In this document: one piece after another, positions 5,539 to 21,931 of the stretch | How the letters are laid out: each line of letters opens with the position of its first letter | Position numbering within the stretch: position 1 is the first letter of the stretch | Assembly: GCF_023913515.1 (NCBI RefSeq) | Contig: NZ_CP099391.1 | Location: 3,100,001-3,164,000, forward strand | Source: Natronococcus sp. CG52 | GTDB lineage: Archaea > Halobacteriota > Halobacteria > Halobacteriales > Natrialbaceae | DNA: 64,000 bases | Reading direction: 5' to 3' | Made by a program: the position numbers and the translations under genes | Notes under the pieces: model-generated | The model's database searches: none | Told to the model about the DNA's origin: nothing | The model's input: the letters and a program-made list of their open reading frames with translations, nothing else

Positions 5539-5910
5539 ATGAGCAGCGAGAGGCGTCGCGGCGAACTGACGCTCGTGTTCACGGTCGCGGCGGTGGAGCG
5601 ACTCGCGAACCCGCCGGTGGCCGTCGCCGACGCTCGTGGGTGGAGCACGTCCGTTGGCGTCGTCGGCGACGGCGAACCCGACGCCGTGACGGACGCCGTC
5701 GAGCGCGCGGACGTCGATCCGGACTTCGTCTCGGGAGCGAAGGGAACCGCGGGCAGTCTCGCGGCCGTTCGCCAGCGGCTCTCGACCGACCGGTACGTCG
5801 TCGTCGGTTCCGACGACGAGGTGCGACGAACCGCGCAGGCGCTCGGCTGGGAGTACCTGCCGCTCGAGGAGGCGGCCGCGAAGGCGGGTTGGGAACTCGC
5901 AGACGGGTGA
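5539..5910 (+). CDS. Haloarchaeal conserved hypothetical protein (DUF7124-like)
   Basis: 123-residue acidic protein with no membrane segment. The core reads as alternating strands and helices (LTLVFTVAAVERLANPP, RYVVVGSDDEVRRTAQALGWEY), which suggests a small Rossmann-like fold. I think it belongs to a haloarchaea-only family (DUF7124), but this is from memory of the pattern. It converges on the hydrogenase operon, with only 12 nt between the stops. No link to hydrogenase is evident. Confidence 0.75.
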   Translation: MSSERRRGELTLVFTVAAVERLANPPVAVADARGWSTSVGVVGDGEPDAVTDAVERADVDPDFVSGAKGTAGSLAAVRQRLSTDRYVVVGSDDEVRRTAQALGWEYLPLEEAAAKAGWELADG

Positions 5911-6614: not shown

Positions 6615-8588
6615 TCAGTCCCCGCTGATGATGTCGCGGATCGCCTCCTCCGCGGGCTGGTCTCCGTCGGTGAACGAACAGCCACAGGAGGTGACGTCCT
6701 CCGCGATGACGTCGCGCTGGCGATCCGTGTGCAGGTGGACCGTACACGGCATACACGGGTCGAAGCTTCGGATCGATCGGAGGATGTCCATCCCCGAGAA
6801 GTCCTCCTCGTCGGTGAACTCCTCGAGCAGCGGCGTGTTCAGCGCGGCCTCCTCGTACGGGCCGGGGTTGCCGAAGGGATCGGTGGGCGACGCCATCCAG
6901 GTACTCGGCGTCAGGATCTGGTAGGTGTCGATAACGCCGTCCTCGATGACGACGTGGTGGGTGAGGTAGCCGCGGCCGGCCTCCCAGAAGCCGACGCCGC
7001 GCTGGGTACCCGACGATGGGACCTCGAACGGCGTGTGGATGTCGGACGCGCCCCGCTTCAGCAGTTCGAGCGCCTCGACGAACCCGGTGTAACAGACGAG
7101 CGAGCAGTAGGCGACGTGGTAGGCCTTCGCCCGCATCCGTTCGGCGGCGTTCAATCGGTCGGGAACGTCCCAGCGCAGTGTCATCTCGGGCTGTTCGGTC
7201 TCGGGCAGGTGGAGGTTCAGTCCGTCGCCGGTCGGCTCGATGTACGGGTTCTCGACCTCCTCGGCCATCGCGGTCAGCCAGTGTCGGGAGTGGGGGCCGG
7301 TCTCCATCACCTGACGGTCCCATCGGGGCGAAGTCCCCCACGTGTACTTCTCGCGCCAGGACTTCCCTTCCGGCTTCGGGCGCGTCTCCTTGTTCCAGGG
7401 ATGGTACGGGCTGATCGGACCGCCTGACGGCGTCTCCGAGAAGCGCGGCTCCTCGTCGTCGGTCCAGTCCTCGTAGTAGGAGTGGTCGACGAACTCCTCG
7501 AGGCCCATGTCCACGTCCGTCAGGTTCGTCGTCACCAGTTCGCCGTCGACGATGACGCCGGGCGTCGACAGTCGGGCCAGTCCCCACTCGTCGGCGTCCT
7601 CGTAGCGGGCGTTGTACACCGCGGGGTCGTCCCAGATGCCCGTTCCGACGAGGTTGATCGGTCGCTCGCCGACGTGCTCGTATCCCTCCAGATTCTCGAG
7701 CAGGAAGTCGAGCAGGTCGTCCCAGACGAACGCGACCTTCTTCGCGTAGTCGAAGAAGTGGTTGAGTCGCGTGTAGAACTGCTGGAACGACGTCCGGGTG
7801 AGCGTCGTCGTCAGCCCGCCCGGCGCGATGGTCGACGGGTGAGGGTACTTGCCGAGCATGAGCGACGCCGCCTGCCGCGCCTCGCGGGTGTTTTCCAGGG
7901 CTTCGAGGTAGAGTTCGCCCTCGAGCGGGTTCATCGCCGTCATGATCTCGCCGACCGTCTCGTAGCCGTGAACGTCTTCGTGGGGTGCGCTCGTCTCCTT
8001 CGCCTGCTCGACCACGTCCGGGTTGCTCTGGGAGAGCAGGGATTCGGAGTAGTCCGGCCCCGCCAGCAGGAACAGGTGCAGCGAGTGGTCGTAGAGGAAC
8101 GCCGCGGCCTGTCCCATGTTGCGCGCCCAGACGCCCATCGGCGGCGGTTCGACGGGGAACGCCATCTCGAGAGCCATCGACGAGACGATGGAGTGAACGG
8201 CCCCGCAGACGCCGCAGGCGCGACTGGACAGGTCGATGGCGTCTCGCGGATCGCGCCCCTCGAGGATGATCTCGTAGCCGCGAAACAGCGTCGCCTGGGA
8301 GTGTGCCTCGAGTACCTCCCGATTCTCGAGGTCGGCCTTCGCGTGGAACGCGAGCGCCCCGGCGACGCGGGTCACCGGATCGATGTTCACGTCCTTGACG
8401 TTCTCGCTGAGCTGATCCTCGCGTTCGGCCGACTCCTCGGTTACCCGTTCGCCGCCGTTGGTCTCCCCGTCCCCGAGGCCGTTGGTCGCGACGCCGTCGT
8501 GGTTGTCGGGAACTGCAAAGCCGGTTTCGTCGGTGAGGATCGAATTCCCCTCGTCGTCGAACTCGATCGGAAGGTTGTCGAATGTCAT
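6615..8588 (-). CDS. [NiFe] hydrogenase large (catalytic) subunit, group 1f/1h-like
   Basis: 657-residue subunit carrying the NiFe(CN)2CO active site for H2 oxidation. The N-terminal nickel ligands are C125 and C128 in RACGVCGAVH, and the C-terminal pair is C612 and C615 in DPCMPCTVH. The block LFRGYEIILEGRDPRDAIDL before the first pair, plus DHSLHLFLLAGPDYS, match my recollection of the group 1h (actinobacterial/Ralstonia AH) type. A 39-residue tail after His618 contains SCGCS and is presumably removed by the M52 protease. The start is the ATG at 8586-8588, which overlaps the stop of the preceding gene (ATGA). Residues 1-60 are an acidic extension. Group assignment is inferred by eye. Confidence 0.95.
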   Translation of the reverse strand: MTFDNLPIEFDDEGNSILTDETGFAVPDNHDGVATNGLGDGETNGGERVTEESAEREDQLSENVKDVNIDPVTRVAGALAFHAKADLENREVLEAHSQATLFRGYEIILEGRDPRDAIDLSSRACGVCGAVHSIVSSMALEMAFPVEPPPMGVWARNMGQAAAFLYDHSLHLFLLAGPDYSESLLSQSNPDVVEQAKETSAPHEDVHGYETVGEIMTAMNPLEGELYLEALENTREARQAASLMLGKYPHPSTIAPGGLTTTLTRTSFQQFYTRLNHFFDYAKKVAFVWDDLLDFLLENLEGYEHVGERPINLVGTGIWDDPAVYNARYEDADEWGLARLSTPGVIVDGELVTTNLTDVDMGLEEFVDHSYYEDWTDDEEPRFSETPSGGPISPYHPWNKETRPKPEGKSWREKYTWGTSPRWDRQVMETGPHSRHWLTAMAEEVENPYIEPTGDGLNLHLPETEQPEMTLRWDVPDRLNAAERMRAKAYHVAYCSLVCYTGFVEALELLKRGASDIHTPFEVPSSGTQRGVGFWEAGRGYLTHHVVIEDGVIDTYQILTPSTWMASPTDPFGNPGPYEEAALNTPLLEEFTDEEDFSGMDILRSIRSFDPCMPCTVHLHTDRQRDVIAEDVTSCGCSFTDGDQPAEEAIRDIISGD

Positions 8589-8892: not shown

Positions 8893-10101
8893 TCAGCCAC
8901 CCCACTCCGGTTCGGGCTTTTCTTCCTCGGCGTAGTGGGCGTCGCGGCGCTGCATCCACCGGTACATGCGCTCTTCGATGCCGGGAGCCTCGTCCCAGCG
9001 GACCTCACGGTCGAGCTTCTCGATCGAGCGGTGGCGGAGCCGCTGCATGACGCCGCCGAGGAACTTCGAGGCCGTCGAGGAGATGCCCGCGCCGGGCGGC
9101 TGCGTGAAGTACGGGGTGAACTTGTCCGGGAAGCCCGGCATCGTACAGCCGATGCACTTGCCGCCCATGTTCATACAGCCGCCGATCCCGTCGCTGTTGC
9201 GCCGCGAAGGCATGTTACACTTCACGACGGGGCCCCAGCAGCCGGGCACCTTGACGAGACACTTCTCGCTCCCGTACTCCTCGGCGAAATCGCCTTCCTC
9301 GTAGTACGAGCCGCGCTCGCAGCGTCTGTGGACGGTCTCGCCGAACAGCCACTTCGGTCGGCCGAGTTCGTCGAGTTCGGGCAGCGGGCCGACGTCCTCG
9401 ACGTAGAACAGGAGGTGGGCGACGGTCTCGATGAAGTTGTCGCCGATCGGCGCACAGCCGGGGACGTTGACGACGGGGAGACCGAGGACGCTCCGGTAGT
9501 CCCGGCCGAGGTAGTCCATCGTCCCCATCGCGTCAGTGGCGTTCCCCTTCGCCGCCGGGATGCCGCCCCAGGTGGCGCAGGTACCGATGGCCAGCACCGC
9601 GGCCGCACCCGGTGCGAGGCGGTCGAGCCAGTCGACCATCTTGATCGGTTCGCCGTCCTCCTCGCCGAGCGAGATCCAGTAGCCGTCGCCGTCGATGAGT
9701 CGCTCGTTCGGGACGCTCCCCTCCACGATCACGACGTACGGGTCTCGCTCGCCGTTCGCGGCGGCCTGGAATTCGGCGACGTACTCGTCGCCCCACTCGA
9801 CGGACAGCACGGGGTGGTGGAGTTCGATCCTGGGCAGGTTCGGGATATCCCCCCGCAACAGGTGCTCGAGCCCCGGCTCGGTCGCCGAGAGCACCGACAC
9901 CGAACAGCCGTCGCAACTCTCGCCGGCGAGCCAGTAGGCGTGGAGGACGTCCTCCTCCTCGACGACCTCGCCTTCGCCGGCCTCTAGCCCTTCGGCCGTC
10001 CCCTCCGGTTCCTCGGGCCACAGCGCACCCTCGTCGGTGTCCGACTCGAGGCCGGCGTCGTGCTCGGTCGGCCGGGTCGGTTCGTCGGGTGTGCTATCCA
10101 T
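8893..10101 (-). CDS. [NiFe] hydrogenase small subunit, group 1f/1h-like
   Basis: 402-residue iron-sulphur subunit that passes electrons from the NiFe site. Proximal cluster ligands are C63 and C66 (ESCDGCSVSVL), then GTCATWGG and VPGCAPI. The distal cluster uses TVHRRCERG and EKCLVKVPGCWG. The medial region reads CNMPSRR...GGCMNMGGKCIGC, with an extra Cys where many group 1 enzymes have Pro. The rest resembles group 1h small subunits as I recall them (HHPVLSVEWGDE, CTMPGFPDKFTPY). No Tat signal and no C-terminal anchor helix are present, and residues 1-50 are a highly acidic extension. The ATG at 10101 was chosen over an in-frame TTG two codons earlier. Confidence 0.95.
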   Translation of the reverse strand: MDSTPDEPTRPTEHDAGLESDTDEGALWPEEPEGTAEGLEAGEGEVVEEEDVLHAYWLAGESCDGCSVSVLSATEPGLEHLLRGDIPNLPRIELHHPVLSVEWGDEYVAEFQAAANGERDPYVVIVEGSVPNERLIDGDGYWISLGEEDGEPIKMVDWLDRLAPGAAAVLAIGTCATWGGIPAAKGNATDAMGTMDYLGRDYRSVLGLPVVNVPGCAPIGDNFIETVAHLLFYVEDVGPLPELDELGRPKWLFGETVHRRCERGSYYEEGDFAEEYGSEKCLVKVPGCWGPVVKCNMPSRRNSDGIGGCMNMGGKCIGCTMPGFPDKFTPYFTQPPGAGISSTASKFLGGVMQRLRHRSIEKLDREVRWDEAPGIEERMYRWMQRRDAHYAEEEKPEPEWGG

Positions 10102-10171: not shown

Positions 10172-10690
10172 TCAGTCCTCGAGCCGTCCGCTCGAGCGGA
10201 GTTCCTCGACGACGAGCTCGACGTGCTCGACGGCCCGCGGCACCGCCTCCCGAACTGGATCGCTCAGTCGGTCCTCGAGATCGTCCGTCTCGTACGGTTC
10301 GCAGCCGACCAGTATCGTCGGCTCCGGCAAGACGCCCAGAGCTTCCCCGAGCACCAGTACCTTCGAGGGATCGGTCTGGTGCATGTCGGCCGCGAAGCCG
10401 CCGATCTCGCGATTCGAGTACTCATCCAGATCCGGCACCTCCGCGCGTTCGACGTAGAGCGTCCCCGGCTCGTCGCCCCGTTCCATCGCGTCGACCAGGA
10501 CGAGCGCGTCGTACTCGTCGAGCAGCTCCTGGGCCATGCTCACGCCGGAGATGCCGACCTCGACGACCGTCACCGACGGGGGGAGGTCGCGGTCCTCGAG
10601 CGCCTCCGCGACTGCGACGCCGAAGCCGTCGTCGCCGCGAAGCAGGTTCCCCATGCACGCGACGAGGATCCGTTCGCTCACACGGTCCAT
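10172..10690 (-). CDS. Hydrogenase maturation protease (M52, HyaD/HycI family)
   Basis: 172-residue nickel-dependent endopeptidase that removes the C-terminal tail of the large subunit after nickel insertion. The canonical loop GNLLRGDDGFG is at residues 14-24 with the acidic ligand at D21. VLVDAMERGDEPGTLY supplies the second Asp, and the His of ADMHQTDPSKVL the third ligand. The length is normal for the family. It is the first gene of the structural operon, 70 nt upstream of the small subunit, and diverges from the winged-helix gene at 10765. Confidence 0.92.
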   Translation of the reverse strand: MDRVSERILVACMGNLLRGDDGFGVAVAEALEDRDLPPSVTVVEVGISGVSMAQELLDEYDALVLVDAMERGDEPGTLYVERAEVPDLDEYSNREIGGFAADMHQTDPSKVLVLGEALGVLPEPTILVGCEPYETDDLEDRLSDPVREAVPRAVEHVELVVEELRSSGRLED

Positions 10691-10715: not shown

Positions 10716-10764
10716 TGCTACCACGCCGCACAGGTTTATGGCGCCGGGAACGGTACCTCGAGTC

Positions 10765-11154
10765 ATGGCCCGCGACGCCAGCACCGACGAGGTCGACGAG
10801 CTGTTCTGGCGCGACGAGGTGCTGGAGGCGATGTACTGGATGATCGGCGAGGGAATCGAGGAGGCGGTCGCCCCGAGAGATCTCCGGGGATTCCTCGACG
10901 CGCCGGCCGACGTCGTCGAGCGGACGTTCGCGGCCCTCGAGGCGCGGGAACAGGTCCGGGAAACGTCTCGAGGGTACGTGTTCACGGAGCACGGCGAGGA
11001 GGAGGCCAAACGCCGATTCGCCGACGAGTTCGCCGACGTGCAGGGCTTTACCGCCTCGCACACCGACTGCGGCCCGGACTGCTGGTGTCACGACCCCGAC
11101 CACGCCGAGGACGAGTGTCCCTCCGAGCACGACCACCAGCACACCCACCACTGA
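10765..11154 (+). CDS. Winged-helix protein with Cys/His-rich metal-binding tail
   Basis: 129 residues. Residues 1-85 read as a winged helix (EAVAPRDLRGFL, VVERTFAALEAREQVRE, GYVFTEHGEEEAKRRF). The C-terminal tail, about 96-129, holds Cys at CGPDCWC and DECPSEH, and ends in HDHQHTHH. Such tails bind soft or borderline metals such as Ni, Zn or Cu. It diverges from the hydrogenase operon. It could be a metal-sensing repressor of that operon or a nickel-storage factor analogous to the His-rich region of HypB. The ATG at 10765 begins the conserved-looking part; an in-frame ATG at 10738 would add nine poorly matching residues. Confidence 0.78.
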   Translation: MARDASTDEVDELFWRDEVLEAMYWMIGEGIEEAVAPRDLRGFLDAPADVVERTFAALEAREQVRETSRGYVFTEHGEEEAKRRFADEFADVQGFTASHTDCGPDCWCHDPDHAEDECPSEHDHQHTHH

Positions 11155-11785: not shown

Positions 11786-12544
11786 TTAGAAGAGCCCCTC
11801 GAGCTTCTGGAGGGCGTGCGTGCGGATCTCGTCGGGATCGAGGTCGGCGAACGCCGCCGGCGCGATGCCGAGTCGGAGGCGCATCCAGATCTCGTCGTCG
11901 ACCTCGTCGAACGACAGCGTTTCGACCGAGGGCGAGTCGGTTCCGAACTCCGCGACCGCGAACGCCCGGATGTCCTCCTCGAGTTCGGCCTCGACGGCCG
12001 TCGGCACGAGGTCCGCCGCCTCGTCGGGGAGGCGAATGTCGTCGGGAAGCCGCGCACAGATCTCGAGCGCGACGAGGTAGCCCTCGGTCCCACCCTGTTT
12101 GATGCGAGATTGTCCGGGAGTTCGCGCCGTGTTCGGCCGGCCCGCCGTCGGATCGGCGTTCCGATCGTTTGCACCCGGGGTACCGACCTGATCGTCCGGA
12201 TCTGCGGCATCCGTCGCGCCGCCGAAACCTACCGGTTCCTCGGCGCGGATCTCGAACTCCGGGATCTCGTCCGGATCGATCCGATCCCATCTCGGCTCCG
12301 CGGGCTCCGCCTCGCCCGCGTCGGTGACGTCGACGGCCGAGCGACCGGCGTCGGCCTCTTCCTCCAGTTCCGCCTCGTTCTCGCCGTCCGCAGCACCGTC
12401 GCTCTCCTCGTCTTCGTCCGCACCTTCCTCTCGATCCCGCCGTTCGCCCCCGTCGGCCCGGAGTCGATCACCGGGAGACCGCTTCCCCTCGGTACCCCCG
12501 TCCGAACGGTCGACGACTGTTTCCAGCAGTGTCCAGGGATCCAT
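11786..12544 (-). CDS. Hypothetical protein with long acidic linker
   Basis: 252 residues, not recognised. The N-terminal MDPWTLLETVVD helix is followed by about 130 residues of low-complexity Asp/Glu/Gly-rich sequence. The last 100 residues (from GTEGYLVALEICARLPDDIRLP) look folded and helical, with EIWMRLRLGIAPAAFADLD. No Cys cluster apart from one Cys, and no membrane segment. It is transcribed towards the RAM-domain gene and diverges from the CooC-like gene at 12656. A hydrogenase role would rest only on location. Confidence 0.7.
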   Translation of the reverse strand: MDPWTLLETVVDRSDGGTEGKRSPGDRLRADGGERRDREEGADEDEESDGAADGENEAELEEEADAGRSAVDVTDAGEAEPAEPRWDRIDPDEIPEFEIRAEEPVGFGGATDAADPDDQVGTPGANDRNADPTAGRPNTARTPGQSRIKQGGTEGYLVALEICARLPDDIRLPDEAADLVPTAVEAELEEDIRAFAVAEFGTDSPSVETLSFDEVDDEIWMRLRLGIAPAAFADLDPDEIRTHALQKLEGLF

Positions 12545-12655: not shown

Positions 12656-13426
12656 ATGAAGATCGCAGTATCAGGCAAGGGCGGTTCGGGAAAGACGACC
12701 GTCTCCGGGACGCTCGCCCGGTCGTTCGCCGCGGACGGCCGCGACGTGCTGGCGATCGACGACGACGAGAACCCGAACCTCGCGCTCACCCTCGGCATTC
12801 CGCGCGAGCGGGAGGTACCGCCGATCCCGGGCGACCTGCTCAAGCGGATCGAGACGCCCGACGGAGAGACGGAACTCGAGCTCGCGAAGACGCCGGACGA
12901 GATCGTCGACGACTACGGCGTCGAAGCTCCCGACGGGATCCGGCTGCTCAAGATGGGCGAGGTCGAGCACGCCGGCAGCGGCTGCATGTGTCGCGCTCAC
13001 TCGACCGCCCGCGAGGTGCTCTCGGAGGTCGTCGAGGACCGCGAGGAGGTGACCGTGATGGACATGGTCGCCGGCGTCGAGCACCTCGGTCGCGGGACGG
13101 CGAAGGACGTAGACACGCTGCTGGTCGTCGTCGAACCGTACTACAAGTCCCTCGAGACGGGCCGGCGGACCCGCGACCTCGCCGACGATCTCGAGATTCC
13201 CGACGTCCGCGTCGTCGCGAACAAGGTCCGCGACGACCACGACCGCGAGGCCATCGAGGAGTTCTGCGAGGACAACGACCTCGAGATCGCCGCAACCGTG
13301 CCGTTCGACGACGCCATCCGCCGCGCCGACCAGGAGGGGACCGCGCCGATAGATCACGATCCCGACGCACCGGGTGTCGGCGCCGTCCGGGAGTTGGCCG
13401 ACGAAGTGCTCGCGACCCACAGCTAA
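12656..13426 (+). CDS. CooC-like nickel-insertion ATPase (MinD/ParA family)
   Basis: 256-residue P-loop ATPase of the CooC class, known from nickel insertion into CO dehydrogenase. The deviant Walker A GKGGSGKTT is at residues 7-15, the switch-like DDDENPN at 36-41, and the CxC metal motif is C110/C112 in GSGCMCRAHS, close to the C112/C114 of characterised CooC1. VMDMVAGVEHLGRG corresponds to the Walker B/switch II region. No CODH gene is in the window and no HypB is seen. I infer that this protein serves hydrogenase nickel loading. Its stop is 2 nt before the next gene. Confidence 0.88.
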   Translation: MKIAVSGKGGSGKTTVSGTLARSFAADGRDVLAIDDDENPNLALTLGIPREREVPPIPGDLLKRIETPDGETELELAKTPDEIVDDYGVEAPDGIRLLKMGEVEHAGSGCMCRAHSTAREVLSEVVEDREEVTVMDMVAGVEHLGRGTAKDVDTLLVVVEPYYKSLETGRRTRDLADDLEIPDVRVVANKVRDDHDREAIEEFCEDNDLEIAATVPFDDAIRRADQEGTAPIDHDPDAPGVGAVRELADEVLATHS

Positions 13427-13428
13427 CG

Positions 13429-14019
13429 ATGGCCGAGCGAGCGGAGCTGTACCACCTCCCCGAGTTCCTCGCGCAGGTTCGCGAGGCCGGCGTCCACGAC
13501 GTCCGCGAGAACCTGGATGGCGACATCGGCGGCGTGCTCTACCACCACCGCGGCGTCCGGGTACCGGGGCACAACGCGACGTTCGTCTGGCGCGAGGACG
13601 AAGCGGCGTTCGAACTCGTGATCGACGGCGTCGGCGACCGCGGCGCGTGGGTGACGTTCGATGCCGACCGGTCGTGGGACGTCTACTTCGCTCGACCGGC
13701 GGAGAGCGCGCCGCACCTGGCCTGGATGACCGACGCCGAGTTCGAGAGCGACGAGGCCGATCGGTTCGACGAGAAGTCGGCGGCCGTCGGGGCGGGACGG
13801 TTCTCGTTCGGGCTCTACCTCCAGCCCGCGGCCGTCTGGGCCGACCTCGAGGAGCGCGCCCGCGAGGCCGACGCGCCGTGTTTCGTCTACCGCCCCAGCG
13901 GCCGGACGCTCGTTCCCGAGGGCGACGTCGAGGACTACGAACACGCGCTCCCCCCGGAGCTGATCGGCGAGGAGCCGCCCGACTACCTCGGGCTGGTCGA
14001 GGCGGACGTCGGGCTCTAA
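13429..14019 (+). CDS. Hypothetical protein cotranscribed with the CooC-like ATPase
   Basis: 196-residue acidic protein whose ATG follows the CooC-like stop by 2 nt, so the two are very probably translated from one message. It has no membrane segment or signal. Aromatic-rich stretches (AELYHLPEFLAQVREAG, NATFVWREDEAAFELVIDG, RFSFGLYLQPAAVWADLEE) suggest a mixed alpha/beta fold. I do not recognise a family. An accessory role in nickel handling is inferred only from coupling. Confidence 0.78.
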   Translation: MAERAELYHLPEFLAQVREAGVHDVRENLDGDIGGVLYHHRGVRVPGHNATFVWREDEAAFELVIDGVGDRGAWVTFDADRSWDVYFARPAESAPHLAWMTDAEFESDEADRFDEKSAAVGAGRFSFGLYLQPAAVWADLEERAREADAPCFVYRPSGRTLVPEGDVEDYEHALPPELIGEEPPDYLGLVEADVGL

Positions 14020-15379: not shown

Positions 15380-16432
15380 TCAACAGATCCGCGGCGCCGG
15401 TTCGCTCGAGGGCTCGCGGAGGTAGCGGTCCCCCATCCCGGTGTCGAGGACGACTCTTCCCCGGTGGTCGTCGATCACCTTCCCGATCGCCGCCGCGTTC
15501 CGGCCCTTCGGGTGATCCCGCAGCGCGGCGAGCACGTCTTCGGCCACCGTCGGAGCGACGCCGAGTACGGCCACGCCCTCGTTGGCGATCTGGAACGGAT
15601 CGAGCCCGAGCATCTCGCCCGTCCCCTTCACGTCGCTGGTTACGGGAACGCGCTCCTCGCGGATCTCGAGGCCGACGTCTCCCTTCGCGGCCATCTCGTT
15701 CAACGCGCCGGCCAGTCCCATCCGCGTCGGATCCTTCATCGCGGTCACGTCCGCGCCGGCGGTCTCGAGCGCGACCGCGAGCAGGTCGTTCAGCGGTTTG
15801 ACGTCCGACTCGAGGTCGCTCCCGAACTCGATGCCCTCGCGCTCGGCCAGCAGCGAGATGCCGTGTTCGCCGACGGAGTCGGTGACGATGAGCACGTCGT
15901 TCGGCGAGAGGCCGGCGTCGGAGACGACGTGGTCCGCGACGCCGATTCCGGTCGTGTTGATCACGACGCCGTCGAGTTCGCCGTTTCCCATCACCTTCGT
16001 GTCGCCGGTGACGACCGACGCGTCGGCCTCCTCGCAGGTCGACGCCATCGAGTCGGCGATTCGCTCTAAGTTCGCGATCGGATAGTTCGCCTCGACGACG
16101 ACCGCGCTCGTGAGCGCCCGGACGTCCGTCGCCCCCATCACCGCGAGGTCGTTGACCGTCCCGGAGACGGCGAGTCGGCCGATATCGCCGCCGGGAAAAA
16201 AGGGCGGATCGATCACGTGGGTATCGGTCGTCACCACGACGCTCGCGTCGCCAACCGGCACGACCGCGCCGTCGTCCATCTCGGCGAGACCGACGAGCGC
16301 GTCGTCCGGGTCCGCGAAATCCGCGGCGAGCGTCTCGGTGACGAGGTCCCGCGTCGCCGTCCCGCCGGCGCCGTGTTTGAGTTCGACGCGTCGCTCGTCG
16401 TCGGCCGCCGACGGATCCGTGGTGCCGCTCAT
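15380..16432 (-). CDS. hypE: Hydrogenase expression/formation protein HypE
   Basis: 350-residue PurM/AIR-synthase-like enzyme. It dehydrates the carbamoyl group placed by HypF on its C-terminal cysteine to give the thiocyanate that becomes CN on the active-site iron. The protein ends in PRIC, with Cys350 as the acceptor. Conserved blocks are HGAGG near the N-terminus, MDDGAVV, TDTHVIDPPFFPGGDIG and GNDLAVMGA-like TVNDLAVMGA. Its ATG overlaps the hypD stop by 4 nt (ATGA). It is the third gene of hypC-hypD-hypE. Confidence 0.97.
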   Translation of the reverse strand: MSGTTDPSAADDERRVELKHGAGGTATRDLVTETLAADFADPDDALVGLAEMDDGAVVPVGDASVVVTTDTHVIDPPFFPGGDIGRLAVSGTVNDLAVMGATDVRALTSAVVVEANYPIANLERIADSMASTCEEADASVVTGDTKVMGNGELDGVVINTTGIGVADHVVSDAGLSPNDVLIVTDSVGEHGISLLAEREGIEFGSDLESDVKPLNDLLAVALETAGADVTAMKDPTRMGLAGALNEMAAKGDVGLEIREERVPVTSDVKGTGEMLGLDPFQIANEGVAVLGVAPTVAEDVLAALRDHPKGRNAAAIGKVIDDHRGRVVLDTGMGDRYLREPSSEPAPRIC

Positions 16433-17589
16433 ATGTCGGGTCGCCCTCCGTACTCGTGCCAGATCTTGCAGGTACCCTCACTGCTCACCATGCAGGCGCC
16501 GACGGGGTCGTCCGGGGTACACTCCTCGCCGAACATCTCGCAATCGGTCGGCTCGGCCGTTCCGGACATGATGTCCCCGCAGATGCAGTCGTCGGCGAGT
16601 CCCGTCGCTCCGGCGTCTGCGAGGGAGGCGGTGTCGATCTCGAACCGCTCGCGGGCGTCGTACTCGGCGTACTCCCCCCGGAGGACGAGGTTGGCGTCGG
16701 GAATGTCGGCGATACCGCGCCACTGTCCGCTGACGCCCTCGAACACTTCCCAGAGCTGCTCCTGTGCGGGTTCGTTCCCCTCTCGAGTTACACACCGGGG
16801 ATAGGCGTTCTCGACGCCCGCCTCACCGTCGCGGATCATCTCGACGAGCCTGGTAACGCCGGCGAGGATGTCGAGCGGTTCGAAGCCGCCGACAACGACC
16901 GGGAGTTCGTGGCGCTCGGCCAGCTCCTCGAAGATTCCGGAACCGGTGATAATCGCAGCGTTACCCGCCGCGAGATAGCCCTGAATGTCGGTGTCGGGCA
17001 TCTCCGCGACGATCTCCATCGCCGGCGGGACGTACTTGTGTGCGGAGAGGATCGACAGGTTCGGCGGCGGATCGGACAGCACGACCGCCGCGGTCGGCGC
17101 GGCCGTCGTCTCGAACCCGGTCGCGAAGAAGACCACCTCTCCGTCCTCTTCCTCGGCGATCTCCACGACGTCGCCGGCGCTGTAGATGATGCGGACGTCG
17201 GCGCCCGCGGCTCGAGCGTCGTCGAGCGACTTCGACGTCCCCGGAACCTTCAGCATGTCGCCGTACGTCGCGACCGTAACGCCCGACTCGGCGAGCGCCA
17301 CCGCCTCGTCGACCTCCGGCATGTCGGTGATACAGACCGGACAGCCGGGCCCCATGATGAGCCGCACCGTGTCGGGCAGCATGCTACGGATCCCGAACTT
17401 GGCGATCGACTGCTCGTGGCTGCCGCAGACGTGCATGACGGTCGCCGGCGGATCCTCGAGTTCCTCGCCGATCTCCGCGAGCGTGTCGGCGATCGCTCGC
17501 GCCTTCTCGGGGTCGCGGAACTCGAGCGCGTTCTCGCCGTCGCCGGTCGGTAGGCCGCCCGTCGGGCCGCCCGGCGGCGTTTCAGACAT
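16429..17589 (-). CDS. hypD: Hydrogenase maturation protein HypD
   Basis: 386-residue [4Fe-4S] scaffold on which the Fe(CN)2CO group is assembled together with HypC. Signature motifs are HVCGSHE (Cys55), GPGCPVC (Cys83 and Cys86) and GFETTAAP. The C-terminal cysteine set (DDCICGDI, DCEMFGEEC, ACMVSSEGTCKIW) binds the cluster. The first 20 residues are a Gly/Pro-rich extension. It overlaps hypC by 8 nt upstream and hypE by 4 nt downstream. Confidence 0.97.
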   Translation of the reverse strand: MSETPPGGPTGGLPTGDGENALEFRDPEKARAIADTLAEIGEELEDPPATVMHVCGSHEQSIAKFGIRSMLPDTVRLIMGPGCPVCITDMPEVDEAVALAESGVTVATYGDMLKVPGTSKSLDDARAAGADVRIIYSAGDVVEIAEEEDGEVVFFATGFETTAAPTAAVVLSDPPPNLSILSAHKYVPPAMEIVAEMPDTDIQGYLAAGNAAIITGSGIFEELAERHELPVVVGGFEPLDILAGVTRLVEMIRDGEAGVENAYPRCVTREGNEPAQEQLWEVFEGVSGQWRGIADIPDANLVLRGEYAEYDARERFEIDTASLADAGATGLADDCICGDIMSGTAEPTDCEMFGEECTPDDPVGACMVSSEGTCKIWHEYGGRPDI

Positions 17590-17956
17590 CGATATCCAGC
17601 TCCTCGAGCAGATCTTCGGCGTCCTCCGCGTCGGCCGGCTCTTCGGCGTCGTCCGGCGCGATACCGGCGGCGCTCGCCGGGACGCTACCGCCGGCTTCGA
17701 TCTCGTCGACGACGTCCTCCCGCAGCATGTCGTCGGGGTCGCCGTCCACGAACGACTCGTACAGCGCCATCGTCTCGTCGATCTCGCCGTCCGGGATGCG
17801 GCGAATGGCGAAGCCGACGTGGTTCAGGATGTAGTCGCCCGGTTCGACCGGTGCGTCGACCGTATCGAGTCGCACCTCCTTTCGCACTCCCCAGAAGTCG
17901 ACGGTCGCCCGTAATCCGTCGACGGATTTCACCTCGCCGGGCACTCCGAGACACAT
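17582..17956 (-). CDS. hypC: Hydrogenase maturation chaperone HypC with acidic C-terminal extension
   Basis: Begins MCLGVPGEV with the essential Cys2 that holds the Fe(CN)2CO moiety and delivers it to the large subunit. The OB-fold core runs to about residue 78 (VDFWGVRKEV, VEPGDYILNHVGFAIRRI). HypC is usually 75-90 residues. Here the protein has 124, and the added tail is almost entirely Asp/Glu/Ala. It is the first gene of hypCDE, and its promoter lies in the 189-bp gap shared with the divergent hypF. Confidence 0.96.
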   Translation of the reverse strand: MCLGVPGEVKSVDGLRATVDFWGVRKEVRLDTVDAPVEPGDYILNHVGFAIRRIPDGEIDETMALYESFVDGDPDDMLREDVVDEIEAGGSVPASAAGIAPDDAEEPADAEDAEDLLEELDIDV

Positions 17957-18145: not shown

Positions 18146-20548
18146 ATGGAGCGCGCGACCGTTCGCGTGACCGGCGTCGTTCAGAGCGTGGGCTTTCGGC
18201 CGTTCGTCTACCGGCGCGCGGTCGACCGCGACCTGCGGGGAACGGTCCGCAACCTCGGCGACGCCGGCGTCCGCATCGAACTCGAGGGACCGAGCGACGG
18301 CGTCGACGCGCTGCTCGCGGACCTGCGGGAGGACGCGCCGCCGCTCGCTCGAGTGGAAACCGTCCGCGTCGATCGAGAACGAGTCGCCGACACCGCCTAC
18401 GAGACCTTCGAGATCGTCGACTCCGCCGGAAGCGACGGCGACGGCGGCGGGACGATCCCGCCGGACACGGCGATCTGCGAGGCGTGTCTCGAGGACGTTC
18501 GCGACCCCGATTCCCGATACCACGACTACTGGGCGGCCTCCTGCGTCGACTGCGGGCCGCGCTTTACCGTCGTCGAGTCGCTGCCGTACGACCGACCGAC
18601 GACCTCGATGGCCGCGTTTCCCATGTGCGACGCCTGCCGCGAGGAGTACGAGGAGCCGACCGACCGCCGCTACCACGCGCAGACGATCGCGTGTCCGCGC
18701 TGCGGGCCGCGGCTGCGGTACGGTCGGGTGTACGACGATGCCGCCGTTCCCGTCGGGGAAGACGCGGACGGGGAGCGCGATCCGTTCCCCGACGCGCTCG
18801 AGGAGCCGACGGACGGACGGACGGCGATCGAACGCGCCGCCGAGGCGCTCGGACGCGGCGAGACGGTCGTGCTGAAGGGAATCGGCGGCGCACACCTCGC
18901 CTGCGACGCGACCGACGCCGCGGCCGTCTCGCGGCTCCGCGAGCGGACCGGTCGCCCCGAGAAGCCGTTCGCCGTTATGGCACCGGACGCCGACGCGGTC
19001 CGGTCCTTCGCCGCCCTCTCGGAGCGCGAGCGGGAGGTACTCGAGTCCCCACGGCGGCCGATCCTCTTGCTCGAGCAAAATCGGTTCGCCGCGGGATCGA
19101 CCGGCACCGATCTCGCGGCCGACGTCGCACCCGGACTTCACACCGTCGGCGCGATGCTTCCCTACTCGGGGCTCCACTACCTCCTGTTCGACGAGATCGA
19201 CGCACCGCTGGTGATGACGTCCGCCAACCTCCCGGGGACGCCGATGCTGACCGACAACGGACCGCTGGTCGATGGCCTCGCGGCCGTCGCCGACGGCTTC
19301 TGCCTCCACGACCGGCGCATCGTCGCTCGCTGTGACGACTCCCTCGCGCGAGTCGTCGACGGCGAGCGGCGACTCGTCCGCCGCTCGCGGGGATTCGCTC
19401 CGATTCCGGTCCCCCTCGAGAACGTGCCCTCGACGCCCGTCCTCGGAACGGGACCCGAACTCGACGCGACCGCCGGCGTCCTGCACGAGGGCGAGTGTTA
19501 CCTCACCCAGTACCTCGGCGACGTCGACGACCTCGAGACCCTCGCGTCCTTCGAGGACGCCGTCGATCATCTACTCGACGTCACCGGCCTCGATTACCCA
19601 CCGATCGTCGCCCACGACGCCCACCCCGAGTTCAACACGACCGACTACGCCCGTCGACTGGTCGCGGACGGCCTTACCGAGCGCAGCGTCGCCGTCCAGC
19701 ACCATCACGCCCACGCCGCGAGCGTCCTCGCCGAGCGCGACCTCGAGCGCGCCGTCGCGCTCACGCTGGACGGAGTAGGCTACGGTTCGGACGGCACCGT
19801 CTGGGGCGGCGAGGTGCTCGACGCTTCCCTGTCCGACTTCGAGCGAGTCGGCGGCCTCGACCCGGTGCCGATGCCGGGCGGCGACCGGGCGACGCGCTAC
19901 CCCGGTCGGATGGTCGCCGGGCTGCTGTACGCCCACGATCCGGATCGCGTGACCCGACTGCTCGATCACCACGGCGTCCCGTTTCCCGACGGCGACGAGG
20001 AGCGCGATCTCGTCCGCCAGCAACTCGAGACCGACGTCAACGTCCCCCTGACGAGCAGCGCCGGGCGATTCCTCGACGCGGTCGCCGCCCTGCTCGGCGT
20101 CTGCGACGAACGGCGTTACGAGGGCGAGCCGGCGATGAAGCTCGAGGCGCTCGCGGCCGACGGAAGGCCGGTCGACGTCGACGTCCCGACCGCGCACGGA
20201 GACGGGCGACCCGTGGTCGACACCCCGGCGCTCTTCGCCGAACTCGTCGACCTGCTCGAGTCGGGACGCTCCGAGGAACGCGTCGCGGCCACCGCCCAGG
20301 ACGCGCTGGCTCGCGGACTCGCCGATCTCGCCGTCGACGCGGCGACCGAGCGGAATCGAGCGGCGGTCGCGCTGACCGGCGGCGTGGCGTACAACGATCA
20401 CGTCGCGACGCGAATTCGCGAGGAGGTTACCGACGCGGGGCTCGCGTTCCTCGGCAACGAGCGCATCCCGCCGGGTGACGGCGGGATCGCCTACGGTCAG
20501 ATGGCGGTCGCAGCGGCTCGGGTCGCTCGAGGTGAGGTCGACCCGTGA
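18146..20548 (+). CDS. hypF: Carbamoyltransferase HypF
   Basis: 800-residue enzyme that turns carbamoyl phosphate and ATP into carbamoyl-AMP and transfers the carbamoyl to HypE. Domains in order: acylphosphatase (residues 3-90, SVGFRPFVYRRA), two zinc fingers (Cys111/114/133/136 and Cys161/164/183/186), YrdC-like domain (about 220-400, PFAVMAPD, MTSANLPG), and a Kae1-like carbamoyltransferase (about 415-795) with metal-binding His in HHHAHA (519-524). The ATG at 18146 starts directly at the acylphosphatase strand; an ATG at 18119 would add nine residues. It diverges from hypCDE, and its stop overlaps the next start. Confidence 0.97.
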   Translation: MERATVRVTGVVQSVGFRPFVYRRAVDRDLRGTVRNLGDAGVRIELEGPSDGVDALLADLREDAPPLARVETVRVDRERVADTAYETFEIVDSAGSDGDGGGTIPPDTAICEACLEDVRDPDSRYHDYWAASCVDCGPRFTVVESLPYDRPTTSMAAFPMCDACREEYEEPTDRRYHAQTIACPRCGPRLRYGRVYDDAAVPVGEDADGERDPFPDALEEPTDGRTAIERAAEALGRGETVVLKGIGGAHLACDATDAAAVSRLRERTGRPEKPFAVMAPDADAVRSFAALSEREREVLESPRRPILLLEQNRFAAGSTGTDLAADVAPGLHTVGAMLPYSGLHYLLFDEIDAPLVMTSANLPGTPMLTDNGPLVDGLAAVADGFCLHDRRIVARCDDSLARVVDGERRLVRRSRGFAPIPVPLENVPSTPVLGTGPELDATAGVLHEGECYLTQYLGDVDDLETLASFEDAVDHLLDVTGLDYPPIVAHDAHPEFNTTDYARRLVADGLTERSVAVQHHHAHAASVLAERDLERAVALTLDGVGYGSDGTVWGGEVLDASLSDFERVGGLDPVPMPGGDRATRYPGRMVAGLLYAHDPDRVTRLLDHHGVPFPDGDEERDLVRQQLETDVNVPLTSSAGRFLDAVAALLGVCDERRYEGEPAMKLEALAADGRPVDVDVPTAHGDGRPVVDTPALFAELVDLLESGRSEERVAATAQDALARGLADLAVDAATERNRAAVALTGGVAYNDHVATRIREEVTDAGLAFLGNERIPPGDGGIAYGQMAVAAARVARGEVDP

Positions 20549-20931
20549 CAGCTTCCCGTCCAGAACTCGTTCCCGTCGGGGTCGCTCGCACGCCGTACGA
20601 TTCGCCGGAGGACGCCCCGCACCAGGGCTTCGCCGGCGACGCCGAAGCGACGATCGAGATCGTCGAACCGTACGCGGACGCGCTCGACGGCATCGACGAC
20701 TGTTACCGGTTGACTATCGTCTACTGGGCCGATCGTGCCGATCGCGATTCGCTCGGCCGGGACGGCGTCGGCGCGTTCGCGAAGCGGACGCCACACCGAC
20801 CGAACCCGCTCGGGATCTGTACCTGCCTGCTGCTGGATCGAACGGGCCTTGAGCTCCGCGTTCGCGGTCTCGACGCGCTCGACGGCTCGCCGGTAGTGGA
20901 CGTCAAACCGGCGCTGCAAGCGGAGCGTTGA
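20545..20931 (+). CDS. TrmO/TsaA-family tRNA methyltransferase-like protein
   Basis: 128-residue protein of the TsaA-like beta-barrel family. In bacteria, TrmO N6-methylates t6A37 in tRNA using SAM. Motifs are PVGVARTPY near the start and KRTPHRPNPLGICTCLLL, the family signature. The GTG start at 20545 overlaps the hypF TGA (GTGA), so it is translationally coupled to hypF. Archaeal members can have other substrates. The coupling may simply reflect operon packing. Confidence 0.88.
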   Translation: MTASRPELVPVGVARTPYDSPEDAPHQGFAGDAEATIEIVEPYADALDGIDDCYRLTIVYWADRADRDSLGRDGVGAFAKRTPHRPNPLGICTCLLLDRTGLELRVRGLDALDGSPVVDVKPALQAER

Positions 20932-21559: not shown

Positions 21560-21931
21560 ATGTCACAGCACGGGAGCTGCGATTGCTGTTCGCCGGCGTC
21601 CGTCGAGGCCTCGACGTCGACCGACGAAGCGGTCTGTTACTGTCCGGTGGACGGCCTCATCGAGACGATCAGCAAGCGGTACGCGCTCCAGATCGTCGGA
21701 CTGCTGGGCGCGCACGGACCGATGCGCTACGGCGAACTCGAGGAGCAACTCGGCGCGACGAGTTCGTCTCTACTCTCGACCCGGCTCGAGGAACTGACCG
21801 ACGAGGGGCTGATCGAGCGCCGGAGCTTCGACGAGATCCCGCCGCGCGTCGAGTACTCGCTGACGCCTCGCGGCCGGGAACTCGAGGTGCGCATTCAGCC
21901 GCTGCTGGAGTGGACGGCGGAAGAGGGGTGA
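21560..21931 (+). CDS. HxlR-family winged-helix regulator with Cys-rich N-terminus
   Basis: 123 residues. Residues 28-118 are an HxlR winged helix (ISKRYALQIVGLLGAHGPMRYGELEEQL as helix-turn-helix entry; RVEYSLTPRGREL as the wing). Before it, the N-terminus has CDCC and CYCP, five cysteines in total within the first 30 residues, which suggests metal or redox sensing. HxlR proteins often control adjacent genes. The next gene is the solute-binding protein of a peptide/nickel-type ABC transporter, so metal- or redox-controlled uptake is a reasonable guess. Confidence 0.88.
   Translation: MSQHGSCDCCSPASVEASTSTDEAVCYCPVDGLIETISKRYALQIVGLLGAHGPMRYGELEEQLGATSSSLLSTRLEELTDEGLIERRSFDEIPPRVEYSLTPRGRELEVRIQPLLEWTAEEG

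Follow-up and report, generated by a model that had tools for sequence, protein, structure and literature searches.

A CooC-type ATPase as a candidate nickel chaperone for a haloarchaeal [NiFe]-hydrogenase without HypA and HypB, and its TGA-bearing bacterial relatives

In the known pathway of [NiFe]-hydrogenase maturation, HypF and HypE, together with HypC and HypD, build and deliver the Fe(CN)2CO group, and the ATP-using HypB of the Thermococcus type, which is MinD/Mrp-like, works with HypA. The accessible text of PMC12134894 describes six Hyp proteins (A to F) as necessary for synthesis of the [NiFe] cofactor, with HypB loading HypA and HypA delivering nickel after insertion of Fe(CN)2CO, and presents the archaeal, ATP-using HypB (Thermococcus type) as an ATPase that fills the role of HypB in archaea. 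CooC and HypB are described as having a similar architecture (PMC9164220, accessible text). For CooC1, the accessible text of PMC6006190 reports that the protein dimerises with ADP or Zn and that Zn is bound at the dimer interface by Cys112 and Cys114 from each monomer, nickel competing for this site. Our literature search, with subscription papers mostly outside its reach, found no report of a CooC that matures a hydrogenase without HypA and HypB.

The hydrogenase locus and its CooC-type ATPase

The window (the whole stretch of 64,000 nucleotides of Natronococcus sp. CG52 that was analysed) contains the following features.

5539..5910, + strand: DUF7124 protein, cassette member (PF23439, E 1.1e-36; in 7/7 cassettes)
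6615..8588, - strand: hydrogenase large subunit, group-1h-like, with a long C-terminal extension (HofG, 5aa5; start by ORF inspection)
8893..10101, - strand: hydrogenase small subunit, group-1h-like (HofK, 5aa5; start by inspection)
10172..10690, - strand: hydrogenase maturation protease (TIGR00072, over cut-off)
10738..11154, + strand: 138-aa protein, winged helix with a Cys/His tail; candidate HypA stand-in or metal regulator
11786..12544, - strand: acidic protein, cassette member, start uncertain (in 7/7 cassettes; no Pfam family over cut-off)
12656..13426, + strand: CooC-type SIMIBI ATPase of 256 aa, proposed chaperone for nickel insertion into the hydrogenase (PDB 3kje match and genome distribution)
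12983..12991, + strand: codons for Cys110-Met111-Cys112, the CxC metal motif; site of TGA in most bacterial copies
13429..14019, + strand: P196, 196-aa protein, haloarchaeal cassette member (in 7/7 cassettes and at L068)
15380..16432, - strand: HypE (TIGR02124, over cut-off)
16429..17589, - strand: HypD (TIGR00075, over cut-off)
17582..17956, - strand: HypC (TIGR00074, over cut-off)
18146..20548, + strand: HypF (TIGR00143, over cut-off)

The protein encoded at 12656-13426 has a deviant Walker A motif (SGKGGSGKTT, with Lys8 and Lys13) and only three Cys residues, at positions 110, 112 and 204. Its best match among solved structures was 3kje, CooC1 of Carboxydothermus hydrogenoformans (E 1e-38), with MinD next (1.1e-12), and its CMC aligned with the CYC of CooC1, the CxC that PMC6006190 gives as Cys112/114 in its accessible text. 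This bears out the sequence-only reading, which had described a CooC-type ATPase with a CxC motif at Cys110/112, and the same reading was right that HypC, D, E and F are all present, each passing its NCBIfam cut-off. The catalytic Lys residues (K8 and K13, in GKGGSGKTT) and the CxC positions were invariant. HypB was absent from the 25 best NCBIfam matches of the protein listed.

That reading had also noted that the HypA/HypB pair is not in the window and had pointed to the rest of the genome (haloarchaeal, 4.74 Mb, three contigs) as the place to look for hypA, hypB and CODH. We searched it and found none of the three: the best genome-wide match to the HypB profile TIGR00073 scored 29 bits against a cut-off of 121 bits and lay at another site than CooC, TIGR00100 (HypA) had no match in the window or elsewhere, and there was no match to PF03063 (CODH). 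A sub-threshold PF01155 match was rejected as a HypA candidate, being a zinc-ribbon ORF without a HypA match in NCBIfam. As PF03063 had no match in any of the seven focal genomes described below, the gene is a CooC homologue but not a CODH-type CooC, and a CODH link was rejected.

Among solved hydrogenases, the large subunit matched HofG of 5aa5 with 507 bits (next 186) and the small subunit matched HofK of 5aa5 with 367 bits (next 149), and the large-subunit ORF carries the L1 and L2 CxxC motifs (RACGVCGAVH and DPCMPCTVH). The enzyme is termed group-1h-like because its subunits match the AH hydrogenase HofG/HofK so far above the next solved hydrogenase, an assignment made from these matches. 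Directly 3' of hypF lies TrmO (window 20545-20931), and at 21560-21931 a regulator with a Cys-rich N-terminus resembles the redox regulators RrpA/RrpB, below cut-off; homologues also occur near several other cassettes.

The P196 ORF starts two bases past the CooC stop, and the sequence-only reading had treated the two as coupled. This stands in so far as they are adjacent here and P196 is present in all seven cassettes, but P196 adjoins CooC in only 4/8 haloarchaeal loci examined (G000, G297, G118 and L068), so an obligate pair was rejected, and P196 is part of the cassette without being a constant neighbour of CooC. P196 has a paralogue of 40% identity elsewhere in the genome (L001:824-1465, C1 at ~2.83 Mb). 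Family profile searches gave no family over cut-off for P196, and its predicted structure was uninformative (pLDDT 37). The paralogue lies beside a zinc-ribbon ORF.

The 138-aa protein has a HxxCxxxCxC tail, in which His108, Cys111, Cys115 and Cys117 are invariant in 15 sequences, and is predicted to form a winged helix (core pLDDT about 85-95). Foldseek matched the model to winged-helix regulators, including the MntR/DtxR type, none under E 0.001, and for this reason a regulator reading remains. As the HypA-like partner that is missing, this protein is the strongest candidate, but a metal-sensing regulator would fit as well.

CooC, HypA and HypB across haloarchaea and bacteria

HypD was present in 41 of 391 genomes of the class. 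HypB passed its cut-off in 34 of the 41, and the same 34 had a HypA match at E<=0.001, with one only passing the HypA cut-off; the other seven (G000, G297, G118, G220, G240, G280 and G289) were without both. CooC of the window type (76-100% identity) was found in 7/7 of the genomes lacking HypA and HypB versus 0/34 of those bearing them (Fisher p 4e-8, uncorrected for kinship), the next CooC-like matches in the class reaching at most 40% identity. The seven genomes come from families f1, f3 and f4, all with HypAB members too, and both types are found within genera g41 and g57. Eight other haloarchaea have a CooC of 36-40% identity, with a CODH gene beside it in all eight.

A 12-gene cassette is conserved in the window and the six other genomes, comprising both subunits, the protease, CooC, HypC-F, the 138-aa and 196-aa proteins, the protein at 11786 and the DUF7124 protein. 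The window-type large subunit (68-100% identity) was confined to these same seven, and the 34 HypAB-bearing genomes have other hydrogenases; hydrogenase type and maturation type are thus confounded in haloarchaea, which counts against the nickel-route reading. At ten HypAB-type loci the hydrogenase was a different one (large subunit 26-30% identity; locus L048 ends before the structural genes) and the accessory set of the cassette was absent. A CODH-type CooC lies near one of these loci, L047. Separately, a Halobacteriales MAG has a large-subunit match (L068:1413-3431) with three stops and no recognisable L1/L2 motifs, decayed or badly assembled.

In a scan of a genome collection, of which the best 80 of 451 CooC loci were examined, cassette genes occurred at five (L068-L072): two haloarchaeal (one being G220), two from Chloroflexi and one acidobacterial. 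Common to the haloarchaeal and bacterial loci were CooC, the hydrogenase subunits, the protease and the 138-aa protein. The acidobacterium has HypB in a second, canonical cluster. Among the same best 80 loci, Lokiarchaeal CooC genes lie near Hyp genes and hydrogenase genes of another type (L075, L078, L080, L090, L096, L097, L119 and L120), and both Lokiarchaeal genomes checked have HypB.

With a small-subunit profile, 301 Chloroflexota genomes separated into a group of eight scoring 520-603 bits, a group of 26 scoring 383-434 bits (best match of each genome) and the rest at 283 bits or less. All eight of the first group have CooC. In seven it is close to the small-subunit gene; G394 has that gene at the end of one contig and its CooC copies on a different one, within a hyp cluster. 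The 138-aa protein was found in 7/8. At the 29 loci of the 26 sister-type genomes, many of them cut by contig ends, CooC and the 138-aa protein were each found at none and HypB at 12. Genome-wide, HypB was present in 2/8 CooC-type versus 19/26 sister-type Chloroflexota (p 0.03), the two being G521, which has a complete hypABCDEF operon on another contig, and G392, in which no other hyp genes were recognised within 19 kb. In the sister-type genomes G432 (L236) and G468 (L237) HypB is absent, the hydrogenase loci have the protease and HypF, and neither CooC nor HypA was found there; HypB loss alone therefore does not demand CooC.

In a small-subunit tree built only from sequences gathered here, a single branch with modest support (82/57, 81% of bootstrap trees) sets apart the 16 CooC-linked small subunits, which come from two domains. 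The HypD tree (20 rows) groups by host and requires at least three changes of the CooC label, with no bootstrap tree requiring just one; HypD of the CooC-type Chloroflexota sits with a HypAB-type HypD (89/80), and that of the haloarchaeal HypAB-type G049 is nested among CooC-type HypD. Given this disagreement between the small-subunit and HypD trees, CooC follows the structural genes, whereas each lineage has its own HypD. The CooC tree (76 rows) unites 18 hydrogenase-linked copies in one clade (97/96), with 43 others in its sister group (99/96); two divergent extra G492 copies and 13 more distant rows lie outside. The CooC-hydrogenase pairing belongs to one hydrogenase subclade of bacteria and haloarchaea.

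We read this pattern as a CooC-based nickel route that would replace HypB, and HypA either directly or via the winged-helix HxxCxxxCxC protein. The Fe(CN)2CO stage would run in the usual way, with HypF/E and HypC/D making and delivering the group. By analogy with CooC1, a CooC homodimer would bind a single nickel between the CxC motifs of its two monomers and release it, driven by ATP, into the Fe-loaded large subunit, after which the protease would cleave the large-subunit C-terminus. CooC would thus take over the NTPase step of HypB, and the docking step of HypA would fall to CooC itself or to the winged-helix protein. We put the probability at roughly three in four that the gene encodes a nickel chaperone of the CooC family whose client is a [NiFe]-hydrogenase rather than CO dehydrogenase; gene content, complementary distribution, co-phylogeny and TGA codons are what the sequences show, with nickel as the metal, the client and every step of the mechanism inferred. 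The replacement of HypA/HypB by a CooC route had already been suggested from the window; the complementarity in haloarchaea, the recurrence in bacteria and the discordance of the trees uphold it, but two of the eight CooC-type Chloroflexota keep HypB, so the replacement does not hold everywhere. It also counts against the reading that, according to the accessible text of PMC6006190, the CO-linked hydrogenase of R. rubrum is not matured by CooC.

CooC could instead be an extra helper specific to the subclade, the HypB step being carried out by another GTPase, for example of the COG0523/CobW type or UreG. G521, with CooC alongside HypA and HypB, would suit this, as would two adjacent CobW/COG0523-like GTPases (named by eye) in the window's own genome (L249:1368-3950, C1 about 309-311 kb), the second with a His-rich loop. 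However, G3E matches below cut-off are also present in genomes with HypAB and in Haloferax volcanii and hence are no marker of HypAB loss. G220 has UreG (its HypB-model match of 82 bits), which would also suit this explanation, but UreG is not general among the seven and was rejected as a HypB stand-in for the window genome, where it did not rise over background. We consider this explanation unlikely.

In-frame TGA codons in the bacterial CooC genes

An in-frame TGA occupies the first Cys position of the CxC motif in 9/12 bacterial hydrogenase-linked CooC copies, from 7/9 genomes, a count that leaves out one further divergent G492 copy without the motif. The TGA-bearing loci are L070:687-1445, L071:2623-3369, L072:10891-11640, L186, L188, L189 and L190. 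Both Cys positions are TGA in two bacterial copies, and Cys is kept in G394 copy 1, G638, G478 and all eight haloarchaeal copies. Among 20 CooC matches in 396 acidobacterial genomes, one was hydrogenase-type by score, and it alone had a TGA. Around one hydrogenase of G492 (L190, 3079-7780) lie four CooC-like copies, of which one lacks CxC and another has TGA-Pro-TGA.

Sequencing or assembly errors, or gene decay, could produce such codons: all copies come from draft or metagenome assemblies, and one of the nine TGA copies is frameshifted. In the eight unframeshifted copies, however, 10/10 stops are TGA and all fall at CxC Cys positions, in two phyla. SelB passed its cut-off in 6/7 TGA genomes (G612 being the exception), in 1/2 Cys-only bacterial genomes and in 0/8 haloarchaea, but since 24/26 other Chloroflexota have SelB regardless, this is permissive only. 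In a general test of SECIS energy the genes did not exceed their synonymous shuffles. Against this, a stem that pairs columns 16-23 to 29-36 around a CGUGC or GGUCC loop, lies 20 nt 3' of the TGA and was chosen from these sequences, was 84% paired with two compensated pairs in the eight TGA genes, compared with 14-48% in slid controls and with 66% and no compensated pairs in four Cys genes, and it fits the bSECIS limits given in the accessible text of PMC13188914. We regard the SECIS evidence as weak, and error or decay as improbable.

The TGA at the CxC of bacterial CooC probably encodes selenocysteine, which would make these proteins a candidate new selenoprotein family, and selenium there would, we infer, tune nickel binding or oxygen tolerance. 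The NCBIfam matches listed for five bacterial copies include no selenoprotein model, the accessible text of a 2026 review of 119 selenoprotein families does not mention CooC, and a literature search, subscription papers being mostly outside its reach, found no report of a CooC selenoprotein. A wider proposal, for which we see the balance as even, is that the CooC-type ATPase would be the dedicated nickel-insertion system of the whole hydrogenase subclade in Bacteria and Archaea, replacing HypA and HypB, with most bacterial members selenoproteins whose metal site is UxC or even UxU, putting selenium ligands on a nickel chaperone, and with haloarchaea keeping the Cys form.

Significance and comparison with known systems

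That CooC serves another metal or a nearby-encoded enzyme and merely travels with the hydrogenase genes is very doubtful: the cassette does hold several proteins without an assigned function, but CooC recurs with the hydrogenase subunits, protease and 138-aa protein in haloarchaea and bacteria alike, and CODH is absent from all seven genomes.

Should CooC be the nickel chaperone of this hydrogenase, the natural swap would show the nickel step to be a module that different nickel enzymes can exchange, and would help to explain the movement of the hydrogenase between bacteria and haloarchaea; a selenocysteine nickel chaperone, if confirmed, would add a new family to the selenoproteins. The question is testable in a named isolate, since the cassette is present in Natronomonas aquatica F2-12.

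The window CooC shares its fold family and the deviant Walker A with Lys8 with CooC/CooC1 of Ni-CO dehydrogenase, but differs in sitting with a hydrogenase in a genome without CODH and in a separate clade, and in that the first Cys is TGA in most bacterial hydrogenase-linked copies. With HypB, acting with HypA, it would have in common the proposed NTP-driven nickel step of [NiFe] maturation, although by profile it is not HypB and it is present where HypA and HypB are absent. The Thermococcus-type HypB is likewise an ATPase for the HypB job in archaea, as proposed for the window CooC, but none of the 60 best solved matches of the latter is named HypB. Finally, the window subunits resemble the group 1h enzyme (Cupriavidus AH, HofGK), matching 5aa5 far above other solved hydrogenases, whereas the window type forms a separate small-subunit branch beside the HypAB-linked Chloroflexota enzymes and has CooC and the 138-aa protein at its loci.
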